From the NCBI GenBank assembly GCA_903929475.1, contig CAIYUV010000086.1, positions 1 through 32,830 on the forward strand: a DNA stretch of 32,830 bases, in the 5' to 3' direction. The translations under genes were made by a program, and so were the position numbers. Positions 5,290 to 19,204 of the stretch are shown here, piece after piece. Numbering within the stretch: position 1 is the first letter of the stretch; the number at the start of each line of letters is the position of its first letter. This stretch comes from an uncultured Spartobacteria bacterium (GTDB lineage Bacteria > Verrucomicrobiota > Verrucomicrobiia > Chthoniobacterales > Chthoniobacteraceae). The notes below the pieces were generated by a model that was not told the origin of the DNA, did no database searches, and saw only the letters and a program-made list of their open reading frames with translations.

Positions 5290-6585
5290 CTACCAGCCGA
5301 GCCACATTTTCAGCGCGCCGAGTGCGCCGGATGCGAGCACGACGGGGATGACGCCCCATTTCCACCGCTGCATCCCAATGAACGCGGCGACTGCAAGCAC
5401 AATGCCGAACCAATTTACCGGCCCACCTTTTGGAAACAACACCGCCACTCCGAACCACAGCGCGAGATTGAAGATGACGCCGACCACGGCGGCGGTGATT
5501 GCCGAGAGCGCGGCGGTGAGTGCGCGGTTTTCGCGAAGGCGCTCGATGTGCGGCGCGCCGAGGAAAATCCACAGGAAGCATGGCACGAAAGTCGTCCATG
5601 TCGTGATGGCCGCGCCGAGCGTCGCGGCGAGCAGCGGCGGGAGCGGGCCAGGAAAATTCCAGCCGCCGAGGAATCCGACAAATTGCAACACCATGATGAG
5701 CGGCCCCGGCGTCGTCTCTGCGAGGCCGAGACCGTCGAGCATCTGCGGCGCACCCAACCAGCCCGTCGCCACCGCTTGTTGCGAAACATACGGCAGCACC
5801 GCATAGGCCCCGCCGAAAGTCACCATCGCCGCCTTGCTGAAAAACAACCCCTCCTGCGGGACCGCGTGCGTCCAGCCGAGCCACCATCCCGCCAGCAAAA
5901 CCGGCGTCCACCAAATCACGAGACACAACACACAAACCCGCAATGCCCGCCCAACTGTCGGCCTCACCGTCGAGACATTCGTCATTCCACATTCGACATC
6001 CGTCATTTTCCCCGCGTGTCCTTTCAGCACCGCAAACATCGCCGGCCTCCACTTTCCGCCGAGCCAGCCGAGCACACCCGCACCGAGCACGATGAAGGGG
6101 AACTGCGCATTCAGAAAATAGATCGCCGCAAATGCCGACACCGCCAGCGCCCACATCGCCGGATTCTTCAGCACCTTTCCGCCGATGCGCAGCGCCGCCG
6201 CGCCCACGATCGCCAGCACCGCCGGCTTCAGCCCCCCAAACACCCCGACCATCCACGCCTGCGCGCCAAAGCTCACATACAGCCAGCTCAGCCCCCACAG
6301 CAGCACCGCCGACGGCAGCACAAAGAACGCGCCCGCCACGATGCCGCCCCACGTCCTGTGCAACAGCCAGCCAAGATAAATCGCGAGCTGTTGCGCCTCC
6401 GGCCCCGGCAGCAACATGCAGTAATTCAGCGCGTGGAGAAACCGCTCCTCGCCCACCCACCGTCGCTTTTCCACCAGCTCCGCGTGCATGATCGCAATCT
6501 GCCCCGCCGGCCCGCCGAAGCTGATGCAGCCCAGCTTCACCCAAAAGCGAAACGCCTCAGCAAAAGTCGGACGTGCAGTCTCCAT
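5290..6585 (-). CDS. chrA: chromate transporter, ChrA family
   Basis: A 431-residue inner-membrane protein of the CHR family with two homologous halves. The N-terminal half opens FWVKLGCISFGGPAGQIAIM and contains LPGPEAQQLAIYLG. The C-terminal half repeats the pattern as FFSKAAMVTFGGAYAVLPYV and TTPGPLIMVLQFVGF. Characterised members export chromate; others may move other oxyanions, so the substrate is inferred. The linker between the halves (about residues 190-215) is odd: residues 194-206, MTDVECGMTNVST, are encoded by an AATGACGAATGTC-type repeat and look like an in-frame insertion. The gene starts three bases after the phosphate transporter stop, so the two are likely co-transcribed. Confidence 0.93.
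   Translation of the reverse strand: METARPTFAEAFRFWVKLGCISFGGPAGQIAIMHAELVEKRRWVGEERFLHALNYCMLLPGPEAQQLAIYLGWLLHRTWGGIVAGAFFVLPSAVLLWGLSWLYVSFGAQAWMVGVFGGLKPAVLAIVGAAALRIGGKVLKNPAMWALAVSAFAAIYFLNAQFPFIVLGAGVLGWLGGKWRPAMFAVLKGHAGKMTDVECGMTNVSTVRPTVGRALRVCVLCLVIWWTPVLLAGWWLGWTHAVPQEGLFFSKAAMVTFGGAYAVLPYVSQQAVATGWLGAPQMLDGLGLAETTPGPLIMVLQFVGFLGGWNFPGPLPPLLAATLGAAITTWTTFVPCFLWIFLGAPHIERLRENRALTAALSAITAAVVGVIFNLALWFGVAVLFPKGGPVNWFGIVLAVAAFIGMQRWKWGVIPVVLASGALGALKMWLGW
5968..6006 (-). repeat. AATGACGAATGTC repeat inside chrA
   Basis: Two near-identical direct copies, AATGACGGATGTC and AATGACGAATGTC, lie on the minus strand, separated by eight bases. They fall in the linker between the two CHR domains and keep the frame open. 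They code for MTDVECGMTNV, polar residues in an otherwise membrane-type protein. Confidence 0.6.
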
Positions 6586-6588
6586 ACG

Positions 6589-7701
6589 CTAGCGGACGCC
6601 CAGCGCCCACGCGGCGAGCGCGGCAATCGCTGCGGCGCACGGGAGCGTGACTACCCACGAAAGCAGGACGCCGAGCACGGGCTTCCAATGGACGCGGCGA
6701 GTGACTGCGCCGATGCCGACGATGCTGCCGACGCTGACGTGCGTGGTGCTCACAGGGAGTTGCGAATAATTCGCGGTGCTCACGAGGATCGCCGTGGCGA
6801 GGTTGGCGGCGCAGCCCTGGCCGGGGTTCATGCCGGAGAGTTTGTGCGACATGGTCTCGGCGACGCGGCGGGAATTGAGCAGGCCACCCGCAGCCATGGC
6901 GACAGCGACGGCGAGGAATCCCCATCGGATGTCGAGCGCGGTGGCGACGAGGAGGAGGGCGGCGATTTTCGGCGTGTCGTTCAGCCCGCGCGCAAAACTC
7001 ACCGCGCCCGCGCTGATGGTGTGCAGCACATCCACGAGGCCCCCCGCGCTGACACCGAGCATTTTCCCCGCGTAGCGCTGACGGCATTCCGCAGTGGTGC
7101 CAGTCGTGGCGGTGATGACGGGCAGCATTTCCGCTGTAAAAATCCCAGCAGGACGCACGATGGGAATCACCTGCGTCTCGCAGCCGACACAGACGCACAT
7201 ATTTTTCTCCACGCCCATCCCCAGCCGCACTGCGCGCAGAACGAGGTAGATGAAGGCGCCCACGGCGACGGCGAGAAGCGGCGCGAGCAGGAGCGGGGTG
7301 AGAAAGTTTTTGCCGAGCGCGGAAAAGTTCACACCGCCCGGCGCTGCGACCATGCCCGCGCCGACGAGTGCGCCAGTGAGACCGTGTGTGGTGGAGATGG
7401 GAAAGCCGAGCCGCGTGGCGAGCATGACGGTGGCCCCCGCCGCGAGCGCTACGACGAGCAGGAATTCCGGCTGCGTGGTGAGGGCATCGGGCACAAGTCC
7501 CTTGCCAGAGAATTTCTTCATGAGCGCCTGTGCGAAGAACAATGCGGTAATCCCGCCCGCCGCCGTGGTGATGGTCGCCCACGTGAGCGCGGGGCGGAAT
7601 TTCGCCGTGCCCGATCCATATAGGCTGGCCACGCCCTTGAAGTTGTCATTCGCGCCGTTGGACCACGCGAGGAAGCATACGATGAGAAAGAGGAGCGTCA
7701 T
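6589..7701 (-). CDS. pit: inorganic phosphate transporter, Pit family
   Basis: A 370-residue multi-helix transporter for phosphate (or metal-phosphate) uptake in the inner membrane. It shows the two Pit signatures, one per half: SNGANDNFKGVA near the N-terminus and RGLNDTPKIAAL in the second half. It also has GFPISTTHGLTGALVG and its partner LPVSTTHVSVGSIVGIG. The start at 7701 gives MTLLFLIVCFLAWSNGAND, the normal beginning; an ATG at 7749 would add 16 basic residues. The central loop carries a cysteine cluster, CVCVGCE, that is not part of the core signature. It lies between the halogenase-like gene (103 bases upstream) and chrA (three bases downstream) on the same strand. Confidence 0.93.
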   Translation of the reverse strand: MTLLFLIVCFLAWSNGANDNFKGVASLYGSGTAKFRPALTWATITTAAGGITALFFAQALMKKFSGKGLVPDALTTQPEFLLVVALAAGATVMLATRLGFPISTTHGLTGALVGAGMVAAPGGVNFSALGKNFLTPLLLAPLLAVAVGAFIYLVLRAVRLGMGVEKNMCVCVGCETQVIPIVRPAGIFTAEMLPVITATTGTTAECRQRYAGKMLGVSAGGLVDVLHTISAGAVSFARGLNDTPKIAALLLVATALDIRWGFLAVAVAMAAGGLLNSRRVAETMSHKLSGMNPGQGCAANLATAILVSTANYSQLPVSTTHVSVGSIVGIGAVTRRVHWKPVLGVLLSWVVTLPCAAAIAALAAWALGVR

Positions 7702-7804
7702 GGGCCGTGTGCTATCTCCAAACCGCGCGCCACGCAAGCGGAGGCACATTTTCGTTTATGGTTGCTCCCCGGCTTTCGTATCGCGTTCCTGGGACGCTTG
7801 CTTT

Positions 7805-9292
7805 CTAGCTTCCGGGTTTGATCCAGAAAAGTGCGGCCAACTCCATTTTCAGCCAGAGCCAGATGCCTTTGAAAAGGATGCGTCCGCTTACGCCGGGTTC
7901 GGGGGTGAAGCCGCCGACGAGGAGACGCCAGCCGGCGTTGCGCTGGCCGTATTTTCCAGCGGCGATTTTCTTTTTGGCGAGGCGGGCGAGACGGCGGTTG
8001 TAGAATGCGATGAGACTGGCGGCGATGCGCCCGGGGCGTCCGTCGAAGGGGAATGCGGCGAACATGGTGGCGGGATCTTTATAAACCTGCGCGACGGGGC
8101 CGAGGTGATAGGTGGCGATGTCCATGAGGAATGCGGCGGCCATGATTTCGGCATCGCCGAGGTAAAAGTATTTGTCGCGGTAGATGCACTCGAACCAACT
8201 GCGGAAGCAGAACGCAAAGCGCGCGTGGTATTCGGCGGGGTCGGCTTTTTCGCCCGCGAGTGCACGGAGGATGAGGCTGCTCACGCCCTGCGCGGTGAAA
8301 GCGCAGAAGTCGAGGCCGGGGCTGTAAAGCGGATCGAGGAATCCGGCGGCGTCGCCGACGCAGGCCCATCCGTCGCCGGCAGTCTGCGTGACACGATACG
8401 GGAGTTGGGAAAGTGCGCGCTGGTCGCCTTCGATGGCGCGGGCGTCGGCGAGCATTTCGCGACCGACAGGATGGGTGCGGCAGTGCGTGAGGATGCGTTC
8501 ACCGATGGTCGCGCCTTCGGGCGGGCTAACGAGGCGGCTGTCATAGACGAGGCCGATGCTGACGTCGCCGCCCTTGAGCGGGATGACCCAAACCCACCAG
8601 CCGAGTCCGCAGAGGTGGTTCGTGGCCCAGCCGCGTGCGGTGAGCGTGGCTTCCATCCAAGCGGGAAATTTTTTCCGCAGCGCGATGCCGTCCCAATCGC
8701 CGACGCCGGTGAAGCGCGCCCAAAGCGTGTTCGTGGGATGCTCGGTCATCGGCTCGAAGTTACCGAGTTTGCGAGCGAGGACTGCGGCGCGTCCGCTCGC
8801 ATCCACGACCCATTTGGCGCGGAGTTGGCGCGTTTCGTCGGCGATTTTGATGTCGAGGATGTTGTTGCCCGCGCCGCCGAGTTTGATGGAGACGAGCTTG
8901 GCGGGGCGCAAAATTTCGCAGCCCTCGGCGACGGCGGTGGCGAGGATGTGTTCGTCGAGCGTGGCGCGATCCACTTGGAAACCGGCGAGGCGGGAGTTGT
9001 AGCGCGCGCCGATTTCCGCGCACTCGTCGAAAGGCTCATCGGGCGTTCGCGCAAACCACATGCGGAGGCCCTGCTTGGGGAGTTGGTGATGGCCGAGGTA
9101 GTTCGTAAGGCCGAGCACGCGCGTGAGAAAACACGAGCTGACCTCCGTGGTGCTCTCGCCAACTTTGCGATCAAATTCCGCCGCCTTCTCAATGATGACA
9201 ATGCGCAGCGAGGGCGTGTGTCTTTTCAAAAGCAAGGCCGTGGCCGCGCCCGTAAAGGCACCGCCGATGATGGCCACGTCACATTCAGTCAT
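7805..9292 (-). CDS. flavin-dependent halogenase-like FAD oxidoreductase
   Basis: A 495-codon protein whose FAD-binding fold starts at once: DVAIIGGAFTGAATALLL with a GxxxxG turn (residues 5-22), then VGESTTEV (44-51), VVDASGR (162-168) and CVGDAAGFLDPLYSPGLD (311-328). The hexapeptide WVWVIP at 233-238 fits the WxWxIP motif of flavin-dependent halogenases. The lysine in LPKQGLRMWF (K73) sits roughly where the halogenase catalytic lysine is expected, but I cannot prove equivalence. It may halogenate a small aromatic or carrier-bound substrate, or be a related hydroxylase or geranylgeranyl-reductase-type enzyme. Start 9292 was chosen because the Rossmann strand follows directly and GAGGGGGG lies just upstream; ATG 9493 would add 67 unconserved residues. 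No carrier protein or biosynthetic cluster is nearby. Confidence 0.75.
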   Translation of the reverse strand: MTECDVAIIGGAFTGAATALLLKRHTPSLRIVIIEKAAEFDRKVGESTTEVSSCFLTRVLGLTNYLGHHQLPKQGLRMWFARTPDEPFDECAEIGARYNSRLAGFQVDRATLDEHILATAVAEGCEILRPAKLVSIKLGGAGNNILDIKIADETRQLRAKWVVDASGRAAVLARKLGNFEPMTEHPTNTLWARFTGVGDWDGIALRKKFPAWMEATLTARGWATNHLCGLGWWVWVIPLKGGDVSIGLVYDSRLVSPPEGATIGERILTHCRTHPVGREMLADARAIEGDQRALSQLPYRVTQTAGDGWACVGDAAGFLDPLYSPGLDFCAFTAQGVSSLILRALAGEKADPAEYHARFAFCFRSWFECIYRDKYFYLGDAEIMAAAFLMDIATYHLGPVAQVYKDPATMFAAFPFDGRPGRIAASLIAFYNRRLARLAKKKIAAGKYGQRNAGWRLLVGGFTPEPGVSGRILFKGIWLWLKMELAALFWIKPGS

Positions 9293-9568: not shown

Positions 9569-11446
9569 ATGGGACCGTCCCTTGATGTCACTCGCCCCCG
9601 CAACCTCGATTGGAAACGCGCCGCCGCGCTGCTTTACGGCGACTGGGGCACGAGCAAGGCCTACGTCATCGGCTACGCATTCCTCGCCCTCCAATTTGCG
9701 TCGCTGCACACGATCATCGCAGTGTGCGCGGTCACCGGTCTGGTCGGGCTGAATTATCTCGTCATCTGCAAACATTTTCCCGACGGCGGCGGCGTTTATT
9801 CGGCGGCGCGTTCGCAAGGCAGGGCGCTGGCGGTTGTCGGCGCGCTTTTGCTCGTAGCGGATCTGACGGTGACAGCAGCTCTGAGCGGCTACGATTCGCT
9901 GAAGTATTTTTTCCCCTCGATGCCAAACATCTGGGTGCCGGGAATCACCATCCTCGTCGTCATCGCTTTTGGTGTGCTGAATTCATTCGGCCCGCGCCAT
10001 AGTGGCGGACTTGCCGTCGGGCTGGCCGTGCCGATGGTGCTACTCGTAGTCGTGCTCGTCGCGCTGGCGATTCCTCATTTCACCACCGACCTCCAGCCGC
10101 CGCCACCCGGTCATTCCTTTGGAAATGCCTGGGCGTCGTTCGTGAGTTCCATCCTTGCACTGAGTGGCGTGGAGGCCATTGCGAGCCTCACCGGCGTGAT
10201 GAAACTCGATCCCGGATCCACGCCGGAGAAGCCTCGAGTTGGCCGCGAGGCGAAGCGGGCGATTATCCCGGTGGCGATCGAAGTTGTTTTCGGCACAATC
10301 CTCCTCGGCTGGGCGACCATGTCATTGTGGAAATGGAGCCACTCGGCTTTTGCTCCGGAGCAGACGATGCTCACCCGCCTCACCGAGGACAGCTCGCATA
10401 TCCTGCGCGTGCTCGGCGAAGAGTTCGGCACAAAAATGTTCGGCCTCGGCTTTGGCACTGGAATGGGCATTGTCGTCGGTATCGTCGTCGGCCTGCTGCT
10501 GCTCAGCGCCGTGAACACAGCAATCGCCGCGCTCATCGGAATGCTCTACACGCTCGCCCGCGATGGAGAAATGCCACGCGGCTTCCTTGTGCTAAACCGC
10601 CACGGCGTGCCGAAGCTCCCGCTCATCGCCGCCACAGTCATGCCCTGCGTGGTGCTGTGCATCACCTATTTCAACCCCGACAGCGCGCTCGAAAAACTCG
10701 GTGAGCTTTACGCCATCGGCGTCGTCGGCGCGATCACCGTGAACCTCGGCTCCTGCACTTTCAACAAGCAGCTCACCCTCAAAAAATGGGAGCGCAGCCT
10801 TTTTGCGATCACGTTCTTCGTGCTTTTCTGCGTCGAGGTTTCGCTCGCATACGAAAAACATCTCGCGCTTTTCTTCGTCGTCATCGTGCTCAGCGTCGGC
10901 TTCTGGCTGCGCTCACTCTCCCACAAGGCCAGCGGCCTGGCCACCGTCACCGTGGCAAGGGATTTGGCCGAGATGGTTTCGCCAGAAACGATCGAGATGC
11001 TCCGCCCGCAGCCGCTCATCGAAGGACGGAAATTCCTCGTCGCCGCACGTGGCGCAACACCAGTGCTCAAGTTTGCACTCAACGAAGCCAAGCTCCACAA
11101 GGCCGTGCTGTGCGTGCTTTATGTGAAGGAGGTCGCTGTGCTTCTCGGCAGCGCGCAGCCCTCGCAAAGCCGCCGCCTGCGCTGGCAGGACGACCCGCAG
11201 GCCGCCGGTATCATGTCGCTCATGATGAAGCTCGGCGAAGAAGAGGGCGTTTGTGTGCAGCCGCTTTACGTCGCTTCAAGCGACCCCGCAGGGACCATCG
11301 TGGATCTAGCAGCAACACTCGGCGCAGACATGGTGATGCTTGGCTCCACACACCGCATCAACATGGCGCGTTTGCTCAAAGGCAACATCGCCGAACGTGT
11401 CTCCAGCCAACTGCCCGAGAACATCGAACTAATCATCCACGGCTGA
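9569..11446 (+). CDS. APC-superfamily permease with C-terminal UspA domain
   Basis: A 625-residue inner-membrane transporter. It has about 12 hydrophobic helices over residues 20-450. The early motif is YGDWGTSKAYVIGYAF and a later loop reads GVEAIASLTGVMKLDPG, as in amino-acid permeases of the APC superfamily. The C-terminal 140 residues are soluble: RKFLVAARGATPVLKFALNEAK, then VCVQPLYVA, then ADMVMLGSTHRINMARLLKGNIAERV. That is the strand and nucleotide-loop order of universal stress protein (UspA) domains, which may bind ATP and regulate transport. The substrate is unknown. It lies 27 bases upstream of the dehydrogenase gene on the same strand, so the two probably form one transcript. Confidence 0.85.
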   Translation: MGPSLDVTRPRNLDWKRAAALLYGDWGTSKAYVIGYAFLALQFASLHTIIAVCAVTGLVGLNYLVICKHFPDGGGVYSAARSQGRALAVVGALLLVADLTVTAALSGYDSLKYFFPSMPNIWVPGITILVVIAFGVLNSFGPRHSGGLAVGLAVPMVLLVVVLVALAIPHFTTDLQPPPPGHSFGNAWASFVSSILALSGVEAIASLTGVMKLDPGSTPEKPRVGREAKRAIIPVAIEVVFGTILLGWATMSLWKWSHSAFAPEQTMLTRLTEDSSHILRVLGEEFGTKMFGLGFGTGMGIVVGIVVGLLLLSAVNTAIAALIGMLYTLARDGEMPRGFLVLNRHGVPKLPLIAATVMPCVVLCITYFNPDSALEKLGELYAIGVVGAITVNLGSCTFNKQLTLKKWERSLFAITFFVLFCVEVSLAYEKHLALFFVVIVLSVGFWLRSLSHKASGLATVTVARDLAEMVSPETIEMLRPQPLIEGRKFLVAARGATPVLKFALNEAKLHKAVLCVLYVKEVAVLLGSAQPSQSRRLRWQDDPQAAGIMSLMMKLGEEEGVCVQPLYVASSDPAGTIVDLAATLGADMVMLGSTHRINMARLLKGNIAERVSSQLPENIELIIHG

Positions 11447-14826: not shown

Positions 14827-15669
14827 TCAGTCAATCGGCTCGTTACGATCGTCCCCGCGCGTGGCTTTTGCCTCCTCAAGCGCCTCACGTCGCGCACGGC
14901 GTCTCTCAAGCACCCATACAAGCCAGATGCACGCTTCAAAAAGCAACATTATCGGAAGGGCGAACACAAACAGCATGAATAGATCGGGGGTGGGCGAAAT
15001 GATTCCCGCCAAAACGAGGGCGATCGCGTAGCCGTAAGTGCGCATCCCCTTTAGCCACGCATAGCTCACCAGTCCTACGGCATTCAGTGTTACCATCACT
15101 ACCGGCAGTTCGCACACGAGACCGATGGCGATGCTCAAGTGCGTCACAAAACCGTAGTATTCGCGAATCGTCCAACTCGGCCTACCAAAAGCGGCGGCAT
15201 CCGTAAGCAGCCAGCGCAGCGTCACTGGCAGCACTAAGAAATAGCTGATTAACACCCCGACCAAAAACAGTCCGAATCCCACCGACACAGCCGGCAGCAC
15301 GTATTTTTTCTCCTTCCTCGTCAGTGCCGGGAGCACGAATTCCGCGAGAAAGAAAAAGAGCAACGGAAACGAAGCGACGATGCCCGCGTAGAATGAAAGC
15401 GTGAACGAAACGGTGATTGAATCCACAGGACCCGTGATGATCAGCACATTCTTCACGTCACCCACAATCTGCTCCAGCGGGTGATTGAGCACCTTCGCAA
15501 GCGTCGTGCGAAATGCGAACGCCAGCACCATCGCAATCGCCAGCGTAGAAATCATCTTGATCAACGTCCAGCGCAAGTCCTCCAAATGATCGAGAAATGG
15601 CTTCACCACTTCTCCATCAGCGACCGCAGACTCGTCGCGCTTTTTAAATAACTTCGTTAAAAACCACAT
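14827..15669 (-). CDS. tatC: twin-arginine translocase subunit TatC
   Basis: A 280-residue, six-helix inner-membrane receptor that binds twin-arginine signal peptides and, with TatA/B, exports folded proteins. Family marks: FLDHLEDLRWTLIKMI near residue 25 (the HLxELR-like motif), FRTTLAKVLNHPL, and the cytoplasmic loop VSFTLSFYAGIVASFPLLFFFLAEFVLPALTRKEKKY. Later come YFLVLPVTLRWLL, SIAIGLVCELPVVM and SYAWLKGMRTYGYAIALVLAGIISPTPD. It is slightly longer than E. coli TatC because of short charged tails. No tatA or tatB lies beside it. Two likely Tat substrates, with RR signals, are encoded at 20090-22339. Confidence 0.95.
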   Translation of the reverse strand: MWFLTKLFKKRDESAVADGEVVKPFLDHLEDLRWTLIKMISTLAIAMVLAFAFRTTLAKVLNHPLEQIVGDVKNVLIITGPVDSITVSFTLSFYAGIVASFPLLFFFLAEFVLPALTRKEKKYVLPAVSVGFGLFLVGVLISYFLVLPVTLRWLLTDAAAFGRPSWTIREYYGFVTHLSIAIGLVCELPVVMVTLNAVGLVSYAWLKGMRTYGYAIALVLAGIISPTPDLFMLFVFALPIMLLFEACIWLVWVLERRRARREALEEAKATRGDDRNEPID

Positions 15670-15723
15670 GGGCGGCGGAAGATGCTGAGTCGGGTTCGAT
15701 GTGTGAAGCGCAATCCCATCGCA

Positions 15724-16350
15724 TCAAAAATTCATCACGCCCATCGCCACCATCCGTGCAAACGCCGCCAGCGTATTTGCATCGCGCACTTCACCGCTCG
15801 CGATCATCCCACGCAGCTCGGCAGGCGAAAATGAGCGGCACTCCGTAATCGCCTCCGCCTCGTCGGGCCGCGCACCCCCATCCACTGCAACAACCGGACG
15901 CGCGAGCAGCAGATGACTGTGCTCATCCGTAAAACCCGCACTCGGGAAAAAATGACCGAGCGAAATCATTTCCCCTCCCGGCGCGAGCGTGTGCCCGGCC
16001 TCCTCGTGCAGTTCGCGCAGCCCCGTCGCGCGAACCGCATCCAGCCCTTCGTTCTCATCAATCTGCCCCGCCGGAAATTCCCAAATCGTCGCACGAATCG
16101 GAACTCGCTCCTGCCGCACGAGCAGGAACTTCCCCTCCACGGTCAGTGGCGCGACCACCACTGCGCCTTTTCGGTGCGTCACCGTCCAGTCAAACGGCGT
16201 CGCGCGCGTCGGCGAAGTCACCGTGACCTTGTGAACTTCGAGATACGGATTTGCAAAAAGCGTGTCATCGCCGACCAACTGCCAGCCTGCCGAATCGCGG
16301 ATAAAATCATGAAAGCGCATGAACAGGCAGTGATTCGGTAATTGCCGCAT
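15724..16350 (-). CDS. Nudix hydrolase, ADP-ribose pyrophosphatase-like
   Basis: A 208-residue protein of the Nudix superfamily, closest in layout to ADP-ribose/nucleotide-sugar pyrophosphatases: an N-terminal strand domain, then WEFPAGQIDENEG and RELHEEAGH. The Nudix box is unusual because the stretch between the first conserved Glu and REL is ten residues instead of seven; the metal-binding RELHEEAG core is intact. A late PSAGFTDEHSHLLLAR motif also fits the ADP-ribose group. The start could be 16350 or the internal ATG at 16320; neither has a clear ribosome site. It lies 54 bases upstream of tatC and may head that transcript. It is divergent from yceD. Confidence 0.85.
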   Translation of the reverse strand: MRQLPNHCLFMRFHDFIRDSAGWQLVGDDTLFANPYLEVHKVTVTSPTRATPFDWTVTHRKGAVVVAPLTVEGKFLLVRQERVPIRATIWEFPAGQIDENEGLDAVRATGLRELHEEAGHTLAPGGEMISLGHFFPSAGFTDEHSHLLLARPVVAVDGGARPDEAEAITECRSFSPAELRGMIASGEVRDANTLAAFARMVAMGVMNF

Positions 16351-17136: not shown

Positions 17137-17187
17137 CTTGATGCAATTTCGCCTTTGCCTACGCATGGGCACCCCCGCTTACACCTG

Positions 17188-18213
17188 ATGAAAATCGCGC
17201 TAGATGCAATGGGCGGCGACTACGCCCCGGAAAATATCATCCACGGCGCAGTGCTCGCTCTTCGCGAGTTCCCCCACATCACAAAGCTCTTCCTCACCGG
17301 CGACACCCCGCGCATCGAAGCCGAGCTGCGCAAGCACGGCTGCAACGACTCGCGCATCGAAATCGTCCACACCACGCAAGTCGTGGACATGGCGGACAGC
17401 GGCCTCGATTCCGTGCGGCGCAAAAAAGACAGCTCCGTATCGCGCGCCGTGGATTTGGTGAAGGACGGCAGTGCGCAGGCCGTCGTCAGCGCGGGGCACA
17501 CAGGCGCGGCGGTCACAGCGTCGCTCATTAAATTGCGCTGCCTCCCCGGCATCGAGCGGCCCGCGATTGCGAGTATCATGCCATCGCTCGGCAAGCACTG
17601 GGTGCTCATTGACGCAGGCGCGAATCCCGACGCCGAGCCCGCGCACATCGTGCAAAACGCATTCATGGGCGCGGCCTACGCGCAGCGCGTGCTCGGTCGC
17701 AAAAATCCCGAAATCGGCCTCATGTCCAACGGCACCGAGGAGGAAAAAGGAAACGCAGCCACGAAGGAAACCCGCGCACTGCTCCGAGCCATCCCCGCGC
17801 TGAACTTCCGAGGCAACGTCGAGGGGCACGATCTTTTCAACGACCCGCCCGACGTGATCGTGTGCGATGGATTCGTCGGCAACATCCTCCTCAAGACATG
17901 CGAAGCCATGGCCCACGCGATGTTCTCCATGATCAAGACGGAGCTTTACTCCAGCCTACGCACAAAAATTGGCGCGCTTCTCGCGAAGCCCGCATTCAAG
18001 CGCGTTCATACCAAAACCAACGCCGACGAATACGGCGGGATGCCGCTGCTCGGCGTCAATGGAGTCACCATCATCTCCCACGGCGGCGCGTCCGCGCTCG
18101 CCATGAAAAACGCACTGCGCATGGCCTGCGAAACCATCCGCCACGAAGTCAACCCGCACATCATCGAAGCCGTCCAGCGCCACCATGATCACGCCACAGC
18201 CACGCCAGCGTAA
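17188..18213 (+). CDS. plsX: phosphate acyltransferase PlsX
   Basis: A 341-residue peripheral-membrane enzyme that converts acyl-ACP and phosphate to acyl-phosphate, feeding PlsY in phospholipid synthesis. Family blocks: MKIALDAMGGDYAPENIIHGAV at the start, DSSVSRAVDLVKDGSAQAVVSAGHTGA, LIDAGANPD, IGLMSNGTEEEKGN, GNVEGHDLFNDPPDVIVCDGFVGNILLK and NGVTIISHGGASA. Start 17188 matches the family exactly; the ATG at 17155 would add 11 residues. It overlaps fabH by 29 bases, indicating coupled translation. A terminator separates it from rpmF, so it needs its own promoter; TTGATG (17138) and TACGCA (17160) are weak candidates. Confidence 0.97.
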   Translation: MKIALDAMGGDYAPENIIHGAVLALREFPHITKLFLTGDTPRIEAELRKHGCNDSRIEIVHTTQVVDMADSGLDSVRRKKDSSVSRAVDLVKDGSAQAVVSAGHTGAAVTASLIKLRCLPGIERPAIASIMPSLGKHWVLIDAGANPDAEPAHIVQNAFMGAAYAQRVLGRKNPEIGLMSNGTEEEKGNAATKETRALLRAIPALNFRGNVEGHDLFNDPPDVIVCDGFVGNILLKTCEAMAHAMFSMIKTELYSSLRTKIGALLAKPAFKRVHTKTNADEYGGMPLLGVNGVTIISHGGASALAMKNALRMACETIRHEVNPHIIEAVQRHHDHATATPA

Positions 18214-19204
18214 CAACTCACCCAAACGCACCGTCTCCATCATCGGCACGGGCAGCTACGTGCCGGAGAAAATCCTCACCAACGCCGACCTCGAAAAGAG
18301 CGTCGAGACCACCGACGAGTGGATCACCACGCGCACCGGGATCAAAGAGCGCCGCATCGCCGCCGATGGAGAATTCACCAGCGACATGGCCGCAAAGGCC
18401 GCGCTCGCCGCTTTGGAAAATGCGGGCATCACCGCCGAGGAAATTGACCTCATCATCGTCGCCACCGTCACGCCCGACATGTTCTTTCCCAGCACCGCGT
18501 GCTTCGTGCAGACAAAAATCGGCGCGAAAAACGCCGCGTGCTTCGACGTCAGCGCCGCATGCTCCGGCTTTCTCTACGGCATCGAAATCGCCCAGCAATT
18601 CATCACCTCCCACACGCACGACACCATCCTCGTCATCGGCGCGGAAAAACTTTCCAGCATCGTCAACTGGACCGACCGCAACACATGCGTCCTCTTCGGC
18701 GACGGCGCGGGCGCGGCCATCCTCCGCCATCGCGCACACGGCCACGGCGTCATCGCCACGCGCATGGGCAGCAACGGCGAACTCGCCGACATCCTCAAAA
18801 TCCCCGGCGGCGGCTGCGCCCTTCCCACCACTGTGGAAAACGCCGCCGAGCGCCACGCCACCATCCAGATGAACGGACGCGAGACCTACAAACACGCCGT
18901 CACCGCCATGGTCGAAAGCGCGCGCCAGGTCCTCGACGACGCCGGCCTCACTCCCGCCGACCTCGCCTGCATCATCCCGCATCAAGCCAATCTCCGCATC
19001 ATCGAAGCCATCGCCGACCGCCTCGAAGTCCCGATGGATCGCTTCATGATCAACCTCGACCGCTACGGCAACACCAGCGCCGCAGCAGTCGCCATCGCCC
19101 TCGACGAAGCCAACCGCACCAGCCGCATGAAAGTCGGCGACTACGTCCTCCTCGTCGTCTTCGGCGGCGGCCTCACTTGGGCCAGTTCCGTCGTCCAGTG
19201 GTAG
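18185..19204 (+). CDS. fabH: 3-oxoacyl-[ACP] synthase III (KAS III)
   Basis: A 339-residue condensing enzyme that starts fatty-acid synthesis by joining acetyl-CoA with malonyl-ACP. The catalytic triad is visible: Cys126 in DVSAACSGFLYG, His266 in IIPHQANLRII and Asn296 in DRYGNTSAA. The opening SIIGTGSYVPEKILTN and TDEWITTRTGIKERRIA are typical. The ATG at 18185 is the only start before the conserved core; it lies inside the last codons of plsX (29-base overlap). A further eight bases separate it from tatD, so plsX, fabH and tatD form one unit. Confidence 0.97.
   Translation: MITPQPRQRNNSPKRTVSIIGTGSYVPEKILTNADLEKSVETTDEWITTRTGIKERRIAADGEFTSDMAAKAALAALENAGITAEEIDLIIVATVTPDMFFPSTACFVQTKIGAKNAACFDVSAACSGFLYGIEIAQQFITSHTHDTILVIGAEKLSSIVNWTDRNTCVLFGDGAGAAILRHRAHGHGVIATRMGSNGELADILKIPGGGCALPTTVENAAERHATIQMNGRETYKHAVTAMVESARQVLDDAGLTPADLACIIPHQANLRIIEAIADRLEVPMDRFMINLDRYGNTSAAAVAIALDEANRTSRMKVGDYVLLVVFGGGLTWASSVVQW

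Follow-up and report, generated by a model that had tools for sequence, protein, structure and literature searches.

A lone verrucomicrobial gene for a predicted flavin-dependent halogenase and its relatives beside aryl-polyene-type genes

Flavin-dependent halogenases (FDHs) use FADH2, O2 and a halide to form hypohalous acid (HOX). Two Azoarcus arcuflavin clusters, as portrayed in excerpts of PMC3949708, each bring a halogenase (arcA) together with a chorismatase (arcB), an acyltransferase, a glycosyltransferase, an ArgC annotation, a methyltransferase, a polysaccharide deacetylase, an exporter and LolA. In the xanthomonadin clusters, according to part of PMC3691225, a halogenase occurs with XanB2. 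Here we describe P0001, the product of a gene in a 32,830-nucleotide stretch of DNA (hereafter the window) from an uncultured Spartobacteria bacterium (contig CAIYUV010000086.1 of assembly GCA_903929475.1). The neighbour kinds of these clusters recur around the relatives of the window gene, including an ArgC-like gene; the likeness meant here is one of gene content, as given in the same excerpts. By contrast, the window copy is unlinked to chorismatase or aryl-polyene genes, and a chorismatase, sought in its own genome as the missing starter-unit enzyme, gave no match there. Lacking this linkage, P0001 is classed as an FDH and not as a cluster halogenase of the arcuflavin/xanthomonadin type. 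Judged from its sequence, it is by mechanism an ordinary FDH, from a verrucomicrobial FDH subfamily, and its predicted function is very probably that of a flavin enzyme adding chlorine or bromine to an aromatic compound.

The reading frame consists of 495 codons and a stop, with an ATG start at 9292 on the minus strand (Table 1). A GTG start 201 bases upstream is possible; the ATG is preferred because the matches of relatives start at residues 1–5. The initial annotation had singled out a WVWVIP stretch and an early lysine at a suitable place. The stretch (residues 233–238) does match the WxWxIP halogenase motif, which is said in excerpts of PMC8407142 to hinder monooxygenation, and it is accompanied by Fx.Px.Sx.G, described in the same excerpts as a tunnel motif of FDHs. 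The lysine proves to be K73, which in a phmmer alignment lies opposite both the PltA lysine (residue 75 of the deposited chain sequence) and MalA residue 108; in MalA', K108 is the chloramine-bearing lysine (PMC8461649, in part). The FAD loop of P0001, GGAFTG, departs from strict GxGxxG, with the strand–helix correctly placed in the AlphaFold model. The CmlS lysine, at chain index 90 given a tag length that we presume, was excluded from the evidence.

In a family alignment (A2) of 63 members that are 47–94% identical to the window protein, W233, W235, I237, P238, F318, P321, S324 and G326 do not vary. K73 is conserved in each of the 62 members that cover its position, which is gapped in L144. 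Invariance of the catalytic positions over this range of identity argues for a working enzyme, and on the evidence of the alignment the family motifs are not due to chance.

Table 1 Features of the window and further FDH-like genes of the same genome. Coordinates are those of the window unless a locus is named.
Feature	Position	Strand	Basis or remark
Flavin-dependent halogenase-like protein P0001, 495 aa	7805..9292	-	Reading frame, profiles, predicted fold
WxWxIP motif (WVWVIP), residues 233-238	8579..8596	-	Sequence and family alignment
Second FDH motif F-P-S-G (Fx.Px.Sx.G, tunnel), FLDPLYSPG, residues 318-326	8315..8341	-	Sequence and family alignment
K73, predicted catalytic lysine, opposite MalA K108	9074..9076	-	Alignment
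FAD-binding loop GGAFTG, residues 10-15	9248..9265	-	Ala at second Gly of GxGxxG
Chromate transporter (ChrA), outside the proposed pathway	5290..6585	-	Neighbour; does not track the halogenase
PHO4 phosphate transporter	6589..7749	-	Neighbour
Amino-acid permease with Usp domain	9569..11446	+	Neighbour; does not track the halogenase
TatC and NUDIX genes, synteny anchor common to soil Chthoniobacterales halogenase loci	14827..16350	-	Locus comparison
Further FDH-like flavoprotein, own genome (C122)	L059:9808-11067		Both motifs
Further FDH-like flavoprotein, own genome (C190)	L061:5881-7146		Both motifs
Further FDH-like flavoprotein, own genome (C44)	L153:1836-3086		Both motifs

Profile and structure comparisons point the same way. 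The Pfam Trp_halogenase model scored P0001 at 59.8 bits (cut-off 21), and a PHROGs tryptophan-halogenase model matched it at 5.3e-9. A profile of the 63 members, searched against the PDB, placed CmlS (2.6e-31) and PltA (2.3e-28) on top, followed by CtcP, CndH, Mpy16, Bmp2, ChlB4, RadH, MalA and PltM. For the AlphaFold model (pLDDT 93.3, pTM 0.92) the best Foldseek match was PltM (TM 0.74/0.74, over most of the length), and ranks 1–45 were all FDHs or 3nix, an FDH-like flavoprotein. The first 18 entries of VIA-align, likewise FDHs and 3nix, had Z from 32.5 to 28.8 (Bmp2 32.5, PltM 31.8 over 431 residues, PltA 31.1), with monooxygenases from 26.7 down and CmlS at 26.2. In a viral structure library, an FDH of an uncultured phage came at rank 5, with none closer. 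Motifs, lysine, profiles and fold together bear out the description of the enzyme as halogenase-like.

Each of the solved enzymes nonetheless differs from P0001 in some respect. PltM, the phenolic FDH of Pseudomonas protegens, is the best Foldseek match but only 18% identical, and belongs to another organism and pathway. The natural-product FDHs PltA, CmlS, CtcP, CndH, Bmp2 and Mpy16 are top profile matches that share WxWxIP, F-P-S-G and the lysine, but they are about 20% identical to P0001 and several of them use carrier-bound substrates. The malbrancheamide FDH MalA has K108 opposite K73 and shares the local stretches K-x-G-L, TNHLC...WVWVI and PLYSPG; by contrast, it is fungal, has 667 residues versus 495, and acts on an indole alkaloid.

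The initial annotation had also described the gene as standing next to phosphate and chromate transporters and without a biosynthetic cluster. The transporters are indeed its neighbours, and carrier-related genes were identified in the window only at 17155–19204 (PlsX and FabH); these are taken as housekeeping fatty-acid genes. The missing cluster is a correct description of the window itself but does not extend further: relatives occur in aryl-polyene-type clusters, and the own genome has a KS/CLF/ACP/AMP-ligase cluster on another contig, C122. This aryl-polyene-like type II KS/CLF cluster comprises genes for a KS, a CLF-like KS (with matches spanning its N-terminal part only), LolA, an ACP, a FAD oxidoreductase, an AMP ligase, a methyltransferase and an FDH-like protein; an acyltransferase-like protein encoded there had no Pfam or NCBIfam match in the scans made. 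A further contig (C190) carries an MMPL exporter, an FDH-like protein and a polysaccharide deacetylase (37% homologue). Of the LpxL-type acyltransferase the own genome has only a weak homologue, on C271 (27% identity, 3.9e-14), and matches of at least 50% were found in 2 of 57 genomes. With three further flavoproteins bearing both WxWxIP and F-P-S-G (Table 1), the own genome has four FDH-like genes in total.

Gene neighbourhoods were compared over 101 labelled loci, of which 92 are distinct, nine that repeat the same contigs (L021–L028 and L030) having been set aside. Genes were taken from an ORF picker, which missed the halogenase in L026, where the coordinate was entered by hand. A locus was called cluster-linked if at least two aryl-polyene-type genes, or a chorismatase, lay within 10 kb of the halogenase. 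On this definition 26 of the 92 loci are cluster-linked (nine of them with a chorismatase), a further 11 have no more than the acyltransferase, 35 lack these genes altogether, and 20 have flanks too short to judge. The recurring neighbour kinds are chorismatase, LpxL-type acyltransferase, glycosyltransferase/methyltransferase, polysaccharide deacetylase, MMPL exporter and LolA; the probes were drawn from halogenase loci, so that the counts express recurrence and not enrichment. The names UbiD, NagA, MGDG synthase, prepilin peptidase, FabZ and patatin, and those of some ACPs, come from sequence reading and not from family search.

Individual loci serve as examples. In L140 the halogenase is surrounded by an LpxL-type acyltransferase, a polysaccharide deacetylase, a glycosyltransferase–methyltransferase, an MMPL exporter, a chorismatase and a FabZ-like gene. 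In L038 an ACP-like frame overlaps the halogenase by 4 bp and is followed by KS-, LPAAT-, glycosyltransferase-, deacetylase-, FabZ- and CLF-like genes, and in genome G030 ACP-, KS-, FabZ- and CLF-like frames follow the halogenase within 13 kb. L036 and L039 contain LolA, MMPL, an AMP ligase and a second FDH-like protein. The link between the verrucomicrobial FDH subfamily and aryl-polyene-type genes is well supported. In L031, L032 and L033 the chorismatase and halogenase have a gene for an ArgC-like semialdehyde dehydrogenase close by, like the ArgC annotation of the Azoarcus arc cluster. At five of 80 loci (L131, L133, L135, L143 and L146) the gene directly after the halogenase reads as a UbiD-like decarboxylase, which hints at hydroxybenzoate chemistry.

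The link is also visible at the level of whole genomes. Among 57 related genomes, 43 have some match to the halogenase and 35 a strong homologue (E below 1e-100). Homologues of the C122 KS are present in 29, at a cut-off of at least 50% identity that was chosen only once the listed identities had been seen to jump from 51% to 46%, and with G033 counted via a fragment, and 27 of these genomes have the halogenase. Both genes thus occur in 27 genomes, the halogenase only in 8, the KS only in 2 (G016 and G036) and neither in 20; put otherwise, the KS is found in 27 of 35 halogenase carriers versus 2 of 22 non-carriers (Fisher p 4e-7 by genome, 0.004 by genus). Window genes used as controls did not track the halogenase (chromate transporter, p 0.27 by genome and 0.22 by genus; permease-Usp, 0.79 and 0.42). 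Over the same 57 genomes a methyltransferase marker showed no significant tracking (p 0.10 by genome, 0.67 by genus), and a further marker, F6, gave p 0.01 by genome and 0.10 by genus. F6 (L059:3073-4620) is a cluster protein of about 500 residues with no NCBIfam match, and its homologue in L036 is without a Pfam match; of the 13 genomes (out of 57) that have it, 12 also have a strong homologue of the halogenase. Eight other KS loci (L161–L168) have a KS and a CLF-like gene; six lack the other genes of the C122 set and two also have a GtrA-like gene. From these loci the pathway genes seem to be scattered in this group; the KS product there is not certain because few genes of the C122 set were found.

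The initial annotation held that a free-standing flavin halogenase in this phylum would be of interest for its substrate. Halogenases turn out not to be rare in the phylum, as the 35 genomes with a strong homologue and the three further flavoproteins with both motifs in the own genome indicate. In a genome collection, 329 stretches encode relatives; the best 80 of these 329 are all from Verrucomicrobiota by record title or tree label, the nearest named records among them being two MAGs, one of Chthoniobacteraceae (94%) and one filed under the name Prosthecobacter debontii (92%). A plasmid collection yielded 72 records, all below 60% identity, the best from Janthinobacterium (27.8%). No description of this verrucomicrobial halogenase family was found in a literature search that mostly lay outside subscription journals.

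Within the own genus (10 genomes, own included), seven genomes carry the window type (at least 72% identity) and three (G001, G006 and G009) a type that is 46% identical; none has both types and none has neither. In these three genomes the ORF of the 46% type overlaps that of an FkbO/Hyg5-like chorismatase by 4 bp, with an ArgC-like gene nearby. We read this pattern as replacement, within the genus, of one halogenase version by another with a similar role.

How the window copy came to stand alone is suggested by its surroundings. A tree of 93 rows, from which the short proteins L129 and L144 were dropped, was built with a quick method and without bootstrap; long branches lead to its outgroup. 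The window falls in a 12-row clade beside a 44-row soil group. Aryl-polyene neighbours were found in none of the 12 rows of the window clade, 7 of which have short flanks. In the soil group 10 rows are cluster-linked and 10 have the acyltransferase only, and the other linked rows lie in two further groups. The TatC–NUDIX pair occurs within 10 kb of the halogenase at 29 of the 92 loci. Of these, 27 belong to the sister soil group, in which the acyltransferase and its partners also occur, and the other two are the window and G007. The pair lies downstream and on the other strand in the soil loci, and upstream and on the same strand in the window and G007, as would follow from a single inversion of the halogenase gene. 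These positions suggest that the window and the soil loci are the same ancestral place, from which the acyltransferase, deacetylase and methyltransferase have been lost in the window. Since genes for yellow aryl-polyene pigments surround relatives elsewhere in the phylum, the lone copy is most likely a displaced component of a pathway of this kind rather than an enzyme that has none; a missing cluster in one window is weak evidence for stand-alone function.

P0001 may thus well be a catalytically competent FDH that acts on the phenolic head group of an aryl-polyene-like product and whose gene has drifted from its cluster. FAD, reduced by a separate reductase, would react with O2 and halide to give hypohalous acid, which would reach K73 through a tunnel that WxWxIP and F-P-S-G line; from K73 the halogen would be delivered as an electrophile to an electron-rich aromatic ring. 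The substrate would most likely be the head group of an aryl-polyene-like pigment that a type II KS/CLF system produces; this group would be phenolic, derive from hydroxybenzoate, and be either free or attached to a carrier. We infer that it is phenolic because of the chorismatase partners of relatives and because PltM is the nearest whole-length fold. Scattering of the pathway genes in the lineage would have left the halogenase gene alone, as it now is. From the comparisons above we infer the catalysis, halide and substrate of P0001, and likewise that the product of C122, or the same pathway, is still what the window copy serves. Against this account stand the own genome, without a chorismatase, and the location of the KS cluster on another contig. 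The same holds for the window clade with its lack of aryl-polyene neighbours, the two genomes with the KS only, the weaker tracking of the methyltransferase and F6 markers, the sparse gene content of the eight other KS loci, and the departure of the FAD loop from GxGxxG. An orphan enzyme becomes testable in this way, with hydroxybenzoate-derived aryl polyenes suggested as its substrate by what surrounds its relatives.

It is possible, if unlikely, that P0001 is instead a true stand-alone phenol halogenase like PltM, RadH or MalA, unconnected to the pigment cluster and acting, without a carrier, on a phenol that is small and diffusible. Such an enzyme would fit the nearest whole-length structural match being a phenolic halogenase, the local sequence likeness to MalA, a window clade without cluster neighbours in any row, and the gene, UbiD-like by sequence reading, that adjoins the halogenase at five of 80 loci. 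It is harder to reconcile with the tracking of type II KS by the halogenase, with the cluster linkage of relatives, and with the one-for-one replacement, within the genus, by a chorismatase-linked version.

A flavin monooxygenase related to QhpG, LodB and GoxB, which would hydroxylate an aromatic ring or a tryptophan side chain, is improbable. Every NCBIfam model remained below its cut-off for P0001, and the top score was that of the QhpG peptidyl-tryptophan dihydroxylase model (NF049967), followed by LodB and CmlS; however, the QhpG score of 82.7 bits is far under the cut-off of 240, and the 63-member profile matched the solved QhpG-type enzyme, a peptidyl-Trp dihydroxylase, at 1.2e-6 versus 2.6e-31 for CmlS. 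A QhpG/LodB identity was rejected on these grounds. In addition, K73 and WxWxIP, the motif that hinders monooxygenation according to the excerpts of PMC8407142, are kept throughout. A prenyl reductase of the geranylgeranyl-reductase type, from the same large flavoprotein superfamily, is scarcely credible and was likewise rejected, as the family model TIGR02032 gave 57 bits (cut-off 158.8), the GGR-like structure ranked 46th with Foldseek behind 45 chains (VIA-align Z 25.5; PDB profile 2.9e-8), and both halogenase motifs and the lysine are present, so that the grouping with geranylgeranyl reductases, which the initial annotation had named as counting against the halogenase reading, was not borne out.

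A broader and rather doubtful proposal can be put forward tentatively: soil and freshwater Verrucomicrobiota, including relatives of Candidatus Udaeobacter, might make an undescribed class of halogenated aryl-polyene-like pigments via a chromosome-dispersed pathway, with this halogenase family as its hallmark and as an unrecognised source of soil organohalogens. Should aryl polyenes indeed be the substrate of P0001, members of an abundant phylum that is hard to culture would be makers of halogenated pigments, a matter of relevance to how organohalogens form naturally in soil.

The soil Chthoniobacterales loci (L080–L126) have one more feature in common, a conserved run of genes upstream of the halogenase that read as NagA-like, MGDG-synthase-like and YihY-like. 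These genes make up families N2, N3 and N4, which are present in 41, 37 and 35 of 80 loci, respectively.
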